Source: an uncultured bacterium (lineage in GTDB: Bacteria; Cyanobacteriota; Vampirovibrionia; Gastranaerophilales; Gastranaerophilaceae). From it: DNA of 64,000 bases. Where the stretch lies: NCBI GenBank assembly GCA_902774905.1, contig CACYKF010000010.1, positions 1-64,000 of the forward strand, given 5' to 3'. Each line of letters starts with the position of its first letter. Positions within the stretch are counted from its first letter, which is position 1. Positions 12 to 56,060 of this stretch are shown piece by piece. The notes under the pieces were generated by a model. The model had not been told where the DNA came from and did not search any database. It worked only from the letters and a program-made list of their open reading frames with translations. The position numbers were made by a program, and so were the translations under genes.

Positions 12-85
12 GCTCTGCTTTAGCGCGTCTACCGACCTCTCGAAAAACTTGACATTTAGTCAACTTTTTCTCGGCAGAGTGCCAC
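12..85 (-). repeat. tRNA-linked hairpin element, copy A
   Basis: Read on the minus strand, this stretch runs GTGGCACTCTGCCGA, then a 12-bp imperfect hairpin (arms near 42-53 and 59-70), then GAGAGGTCGGTAGACGC. The flanks match a second copy near 55.2 kb: the 15 bases at 71-85 are identical to 55256-55270. The bases just before it on the minus strand (CCACGCTCCAGTGGC, 81-95) look like a tRNA 5' acceptor strand plus positions 8-12, and GGTAGACGCGCTA afterwards resembles a leucine-type tRNA D-arm. No full tRNA can be folded from what is visible, because the sequence runs off the left edge. It may be an interrupted or decayed tRNA gene, or a repeat that targets tRNA genes. Confidence 0.5.
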
Positions 86-55079: not shown

Positions 55080-55151
55080 TGGGCCCGGAGGGATTCGAAC
55101 CCACGACCAAAGGATTATGAGTCCTCTGCGCTACCGCTGCGCCACAGGCCC
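55080..55151 (-). tRNA. tRNA with CAT anticodon (Met elongator or lysidine-type Ile2)
   Basis: The 72-nt gene folds as a cloverleaf: acceptor GGGCCTG with CGGGCCC, D-arm GCGC...GCGC, anticodon stem GAGGA/TCCTT around loop CTCATAA, and T-arm with TTCGAAT. The T-stem has one mismatch (GTGGG with CCCTC). CCA is not encoded. A CAT anticodon fits elongator Met or Ile2; which one cannot be decided here. It ends at the bidirectional terminator. Confidence 0.93.
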
Positions 55152-55180
55152 GTGACGACTTTTTATTCAATTTTCAACGG

Positions 55181-55288
55181 GCTCAGCGTTAGCGTGCGCT
55201 ACCTACCTCTCCTCGGAAGATTATTAATCTTCCTCGTCGTTATTAATCTTCCTCGTCGGCAGAGTGCCACAGGCCCGTGACGACTTTT
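55181..55288 (-). repeat. tRNA-linked hairpin element, copy B, with duplicated tRNA 5' end
   Basis: The tRNA's first ~11 bases and upstream flank (55141-55163) are repeated as 23 identical bases at 55266-55288, 125 nt away. Between them lies the hairpin element seen also at 12-85: ACTCTGCCGA, then GGAAGATTA/TAATCTTCC hairpin and a 19-bp tandem repeat (55221-55239, 55240-55258), then GAGAGGTAGGTAGCGC and GAGCCC. On the minus strand the ends GGGC and GCCC could pair. Confidence 0.7.
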
Positions 55289-55295
55289 GTTTAAT

Positions 55296-55320
55296 GTCAT
55301 CCTGAACTTGTTTCAGGATC
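55296..55320. repeat. single palindrome of the TCATTCTGA family
   Basis: GTCATCCTGAACTTG followed by TTTCAGGATC forms one palindrome of the same family as at 34.3, 40.6 and 63.3 kb. It occurs alone, without the second palindrome. Confidence 0.65.
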
Positions 55321-55409
55321 TCATTATTCCGCAAATTCACCCCCATTACAATGGCAGAAGGGTGAAATTGTTCTACACACATTTAGGTTAACATCAACAT
55401 ATCAAAAAA

Positions 55410-56060
55410 TCAAGATTTACTCAAAAGTTCAATTATATCTTCTTTTGTTATACTTGGGCTAATCTCTTTTATGCAGGTAATTTCATTAGTTGTTACTTCT
55501 TCTCTGAATATTTTTTCTAACAACTCTTTATCATAGTCATACAGTATAGAACCATGCTGAAGAATATAACCCTGTTTTCTGCACTGAGCCGAACCAATTA
55601 GTTTCTTACCTTTAAAACACAAATCTGCTCCTGTCGACACAAGCATGCAATAATCAAAACCTGTTCTTACCTGTTTTTGTGTCCCAAAATCAATATCAAT
55701 TCCGATAGTTTTAAATTTTTTAATAAATATTTGGCAAATTTCTTTGTATGAAGATACGATATGTTCGCCATGCTCTAAATACGAAACAGGACAAATATAA
55801 CTGTATGTGATTTCATTGTCATGCAAAAGTGCTCGACCGCCTGTCAAGCGTCTGACAACATCAATCCCGCTTTTTTTTAAATACTCTTTATCCAAAAAAT
55901 CATCATTCTGATTTCGACCTAAAGATACACATGCAGGCTTCCAACCATATAATCTGAAAATGGGTTCTTCTAATTTATTTTTAATAGCATACTCAAGCAA
56001 ATCAGAATCGATTTGCATATTTTCTTCGCCTGTTTTTGTTTCGTAATCTACAAATTGCAT
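55410..56060 (-). CDS. octanoyltransferase LipM-like (LplA/LipB family)
   Basis: This 216-residue biotin/lipoate ligase-type protein has RRLTGGRALLHDNEITYS, a conserved Cys in DYCMLVS and KKLIGSAQCRKQGYILQHGSI. The Cys and QHGSI pattern fit LipM, which moves octanoate from acyl carrier protein to a target for lipoate synthesis. No good ribosome-binding site is seen. It follows the secreted paralog pair by 16 nt. Confidence 0.85.
   Translation of the reverse strand: MQFVDYETKTGEENMQIDSDLLEYAIKNKLEEPIFRLYGWKPACVSLGRNQNDDFLDKEYLKKSGIDVVRRLTGGRALLHDNEITYSYICPVSYLEHGEHIVSSYKEICQIFIKKFKTIGIDIDFGTQKQVRTGFDYCMLVSTGADLCFKGKKLIGSAQCRKQGYILQHGSILYDYDKELLEKIFREEVTTNEITCIKEISPSITKEDIIELLSKS

Follow-up and report, generated by a model that had tools for sequence, protein, structure and literature searches.

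A dispersed hairpin repeat, probably mobile, is often found within duplicated ends of tRNA genes in Gastranaerophilaceae

The window, the whole stretch of 64,000 nucleotides analyzed from an uncultured member of the Gastranaerophilaceae, contains one tRNA(CAT) gene according to ARAGORN and Rfam. This intact tRNA-Met(cat) gene occupies positions 55080-55151 (ARAGORN; Rfam tRNA, 69.7 bits) on the minus strand, which also carries all of the features described below for this locus. A 23-base sequence, GCCACAGGCCCGTGACGACTTTT, composed of 12 leader bases and the first 11 tRNA bases, is present at 55141-55163 as part of the intact gene and is repeated exactly at 55266-55288. These two copies bear out an earlier note on this DNA, which had claimed that the 5' end and flank of the tRNA are duplicated around a hairpin element and that the repeat covers the first ~11 tRNA bases and the upstream flank. 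A further, diverged part of the leader seems by eye to be duplicated too. Read along the minus strand, the unit starts with the upstream copy of the leader and tRNA nt 1-11, followed by a core in which ACTCTGCCGA and GAGAGG flank a hairpin (55206-55265; covariance model R2, E = 9e-10), a copy of the 3' half of the tRNA D-arm (GGTAGCGCA, 55195-55203), a tail, the AT-rich motif TTGAAAATTGAATA (55164-55177) and the leader with the intact tRNA. The copied D-arm half contains the 5' arm of a second hairpin, GTAGCGCACGCTAAC (55188-55202). The tail segment GAGCCCG (55178-55184) is able to pair with the CGGGC that starts the upstream tRNA copy, a pairing that was tested at the group level. A probable promoter of the tRNA transcript, TTGATTTTTTGATATGTTGATGTTAACCT, lies at 55385-55413 and is common by eye to relatives at this and other tRNA-Met loci, which would place the window unit in the tRNA 5' leader. 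TTGAAAATTGAATA could be described as boxA-like, by resemblance only. It was considered as an end of the element and rejected, and it is treated as leader because it also precedes tRNAs without a unit, as at Leu loci; a loose pattern for the motif matched before 88 of 121 tRNAs with a unit and 25 of 69 counted as without one.

The core is longer here because its hairpin holds two tandem copies of the 19-bp sequence TTATTAATCTTCCTCGTCG (55221-55258, divided into 55221-55239 and 55240-55258). This duplication, which the earlier note included in the element, is exact in the window but is not a feature of the family. It is missing from the tRNA-Met locus of the two closest relatives (L167 and L178), and most likely represents a private slippage event of this genome. 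Upstream of the unit, the tRNA leader holds another palindrome, TCATCCTGAACTTGTTTCAGGATCT (55296-55320), and L178 has a similar one at this locus. The window has two occurrences of TCGGCAGAGTGCCAC (71-85 and 55256-55270) where 0.01 would be expected, and the genome has three. The copy at the contig start belongs to a second core (34-85, minus strand) that is part of a separate array, the one preceding tRNA-Leu(taa) on contig C24. The contig of the window (positions 1-94) and contig C24 (its start) both end within these tandem units. It is therefore probable that the tRNA-Leu array broke the assembly and joins the two contigs.

The core has a length of about 40-50 nt, within an overall range of 40-60 bases, with conserved ends and a variable hairpin, and was searched for with a covariance model built on a hand-set hairpin structure. 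The hairpin arms covary, with double changes in 10 of 12 pairs and a covariation score of 0.252 versus 0.097 after shuffling. The model detects 14-15 cores in the genome of the window (2.0 Mb, 51 contigs), located upstream of tRNA-Met, Leu(taa), Leu(gag), Val(gac) (three in tandem), Pro(ggg) and Ile(gat), with a few in a different dispersed repeat. When 84,980 species were scanned with one genome each, at least 114 stretches with the core pattern were returned, and among the matches listed nearly all records were Ca. Gastranaerophilales, Melainabacteria or unnamed bacterial bins. Exact pattern matches in Synergistaceae, Verrucomicrobia and Bacteroidetes records were judged to be chance since they are without the hairpin. 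Within a sample of the order, a core match was found in 98 of 117 genomes, consisting of 94 of the 95 from the family of the window and four from two sister families. All 51 matching genomes in a wider sample of the class, filtered more strictly, fell within the family. Typical units also stand beside tRNAs in records titled Muribaculaceae and Fusobacterium sp. CAG:439 (L052 and L106), which are probably mislabelled or mixed bins. Four loci of genome G118 (L314, L315, L321 and L322) have a second hairpin directly before the core in which ACTCC...GGAG replaces ACTCT...AGAG, perhaps a core variant that carries a compensatory change. Rfam returned only tRNA above threshold, and relaxing the threshold added chance matches alone. 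Literature searches found no description of this hairpin repeat.

Units copy the tRNA that they accompany. An 11/11 match to the 5' end of the unit's own tRNA was present in 77% of 131 dereplicated units and to other tRNAs in 1.5%, where related species are not independent and where the first scan required GGC before the core, which favors own-tRNA-copying units and affects the own-versus-other contrast less. The core follows tRNA position 11-12 in more than 80 units at many different tRNAs, the intact tRNA adjoins by direct duplication, and the D-arm of the same tRNA stands behind the core (GGTAGCGCA, GGTAGACGC and GGTATACGC). By inspection, few bases are replaced: GGAAT at Leu, GCAGC at Met, and GGATTC or GGAATC at 3' ends. 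Other positions are used as well. The core stands after nt 26 in tRNA-Ile, and in the tRNA-Val arrays L102 and L110 a core after nt 11 alternates with a different core after nt 18.

The unit occurs at both ends of tRNA genes. Among 306 non-redundant strict copies, 186 lie within 250 bp of a tRNA, with 160 at the 5' end in the sense orientation, 17 at the 3' end in the antisense orientation and nine in other arrangements (seven and two). The remaining 120 have no detected tRNA within this distance; thus, the element is not strictly tRNA-targeting. The suggestion that it enters a tRNA at the D-arm and rebuilds the gene is largely supported by the units that hold a core after nt 11-12 beside an intact tRNA, but confinement to tRNAs did not hold up in the search beyond the window. 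The earlier note had set two observations together against tRNA targeting, copies away from tRNAs and a unique 23-bp match. Such copies exist, and the match is not unique because units generally copy their own tRNA. Both main arrangements read identically along the core strand as flank, tRNA end, core, tail, flank and intact tRNA, and at tRNA-Gln, Met, Leu(caa) and others the terminator is duplicated along with the 3' end. The same geometry at both gene ends indicates that the duplicated end, and not transcription, determines the strand and, together with the duplicated terminators, argues for a DNA process over one RNA function. Duplication lengths for single 5' units have a median of 30 and quartiles of 20 and 41.5, and the longest values arise because upstream units went undetected. 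Leu loci such as L395, L405 and L407 have the leader motif itself duplicated, with duplications of ~34-45 bp by inspection.

The core is a short palindrome with many dispersed and also nested copies. Numbers range from 0 to 71 cores per genome; in the order sample of 117 genomes, where at most 50 candidates were scored per genome, relatives vary from 0 to 50 or more. These are not counts of independent events because copies in relatives are partly inherited. Some genomes carry dozens of cores in dispersed repeats; in G077 many belong to the composite repeat CCCTCCC..ATGG|core|GAAATTTC, and in G087 they lie in other repeats, some with two cores consecutively. The comparison with relatives lacking the element that the earlier note proposed could be made within the genus of the window, where tRNA-Met and tRNA-Leu(taa) loci have between one and three units, a single decayed one or no unit, at a flank identity of ~80%. 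No two near-identical genomes were found of which one had a clean empty site and the other a filled one. Adjacent units share their hairpin in 62 of 74 pairs and differ in 12, indicating that much of the spread is local tandem duplication. Larger, gene-bearing (autonomous) versions were sought and none was found. Near position 2000 of L332 (G124:C13), a RAYT gene has on either side what by eye looks like a duplicated tmRNA end, and a core is close by, an arrangement which suggests that tmRNA genes may be further targets.

The core resembles REP and REPIN elements, which are mobilized by RAYTs (PMC3116915, PMC2817692, PMC3733652), in being a short, non-coding, intergenic palindrome with many copies whose number varies between relatives. 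The GTAG and CGTC superfamilies of REPs have an unpaired GTAG or CGTC tetranucleotide at one hairpin end (PMC3733652). The core lacks either tag at the hairpin foot and has ACTCTGCCGA and GAGAGG as its ends; unlike REPs, its units copy a tRNA end. The REP of a RAYT would flank the RAYT gene, and the core is not the usual palindrome next to these genes here. The small dispersed repeats of cyanobacteria, a sister lineage, are similar in being very small, a likeness drawn from their description. Elhai et al. in 2008 reportedly described these repeats as very small, thought to be mobile, hairpin-forming and entering other repeats, and they are not known to duplicate tRNA ends. Rickettsia palindromic elements are small palindromes that enter protein genes in frame. 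The target of the core, in contrast, is duplicated and stays intact outside the insert. One of these Rickettsia elements, RPE-1, is mentioned as lying in a gene (PMC3733652).

We consider it somewhat probable that the core is a non-autonomous mobile hairpin of the REP or small-dispersed-repeat kind that duplicates its target and is multiplied in tandem. The core would enter an end of a tRNA gene and replace ~5-7 bases, a stretch of commonly 20-40 bp from the outer target, made up of the leader or terminator together with the first bases of the tRNA end, would be duplicated on the far side of the core, and an intact tRNA gene would remain. Part of the target would often also be left as an inverted copy behind the core, perhaps made by template switching, an enzyme would presumably act in trans, and the units would then multiply by tandem duplication. 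The anatomy of the units, their match to their own tRNA, the geometry at two gene ends, the several positions per tRNA, the dispersed copies, the variation in copy number, the hairpin covariation and the loci with and without a unit support this reading, from which we infer a true insertion of the core. The failed searches for an empty and filled site pair and for an autonomous copy, the shared hairpins of adjacent units and the partial inheritance of copies count against it, as do two further results: duplications vary in length, as the footprint of a normal transposase would not, and an exact inverted copy reaching the replaced bases is found in only 12 of 127 5' units.

The tail bears on an alternative in which the unit is a cis-acting leader RNA. 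Pairing between tRNA copy and tail, the core hairpin and the D-arm hairpin would form a three-way junction controlling transcription, folding or processing of the downstream tRNA, and the copied tRNA end would serve as a decoy for the antisense tail. The units located between promoter and tRNA fit this arrangement, as does the covariation in the core hairpin. In reverse complement, the 5' half of the unit's own tRNA is similar to the tail (local score 7.3, versus 5.4 for other tRNAs and 4.7 for shuffled sequence), and its duplex with the unit's own upstream copy is predicted at -11.4 kcal/mol compared to -9.2 for the copies of other tRNAs (p = 4e-10) and -8.6 for shuffled sequence. The first units of L183 and L188 carry a copy that no longer matches the tRNA, yet by eye the pairing looks kept. 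An inverted copy of the target yields the same pairing without function, however, and 3'-end units lie beyond the terminator on the opposite strand. Many copies are unrelated to tRNAs, and some genomes and orthologous loci have no unit. The tail of the 12 5' units noted above contains the antisense of GGTA plus at least three preceding tRNA bases, and 3'-end units of Gln, Met, His and Phe have the replaced bases in antisense by inspection. These bases have no possible pairing partner within the unit, suggesting an intact target as the template of the tail. A regulatory leader is regarded as unlikely.

The mobile-hairpin reading was also weighed against three DNA-based alternatives. In the first, hairpins stall replication at tRNA ends, which then undergo tandem duplication and template switching, and gene conversion spreads the core. 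This would explain the variable duplication lengths, the inverted target copies and the identical hairpin in most neighbors; the process is improbable since a conserved core that is found in unrelated tRNAs and in dozens of dispersed repeats must have some means of moving between sites. A second alternative takes the core as the REP of RAYT (Y1) transposases. Y1 genes occur in 35 of 117 genomes, and genomes with a Y1 match are richer in cores (median 13 versus 6, p = 5e-5; within genera, p = 0.0004). A core lies within ~260 bp of five of ~50 Y1 genes, four of them upstream and divergent, and at ~1850-2700 of L333 (G118:C7) the hairpin loop of a core beside tRNA-Phe holds a RAYT element with GTAGGTTGGGG palindromes, which splits the core. 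The palindromes around most RAYT genes are of a GTAG type of their own and differ from the core, and G077, G096 and G128, with 42-48 cores, are not among the genomes with a Y1 match. General repeat load may account for the correlation and RAYTs entering core arrays for the proximity. RAYT was not accepted as the cognate enzyme because of its own GTAG palindromes and the core-rich genomes without a Y1 match, and it is quite improbable that the core is the REP of these transposases. Direct repeats restoring the tRNA are typical of tRNA-integrating islands, and the units share this property, which would make their repeats the attL and attR of a tyrosine integrase. The distances from copy to copy are mostly 78-165 bp, inserts too short for an integrase gene, and no gene-sized insert was found between direct repeats. 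In contrast to integrative elements, one core serves many tRNAs at both ends and several positions; an origin as island remnants is very improbable indeed.

The main idea of the earlier note thus holds in a widened form: the hairpin is a dispersed and probably mobile module that is often found where a tRNA gene has a duplicated end, 5' or 3'. A more specific proposal, put forward tentatively, is a miniature DNA element with a dedicated way of moving that would enter structured RNA genes, preserve the host gene by duplicating its end, and leave the original target copied in inverted form behind the hairpin. tRNA genes are favorite docking sites of mobile DNA, and the elements that use them are large and integrase-bearing. 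A unit of ~100 bp docking at either end of many tRNAs would, if true, be a new strategy. Unit arrays probably also break the assemblies of these mostly uncultured gut bacteria. The core provides a defined target for finding the mobilizing enzyme or, if the leader-RNA alternative were true, would represent a new tRNA leader RNA.
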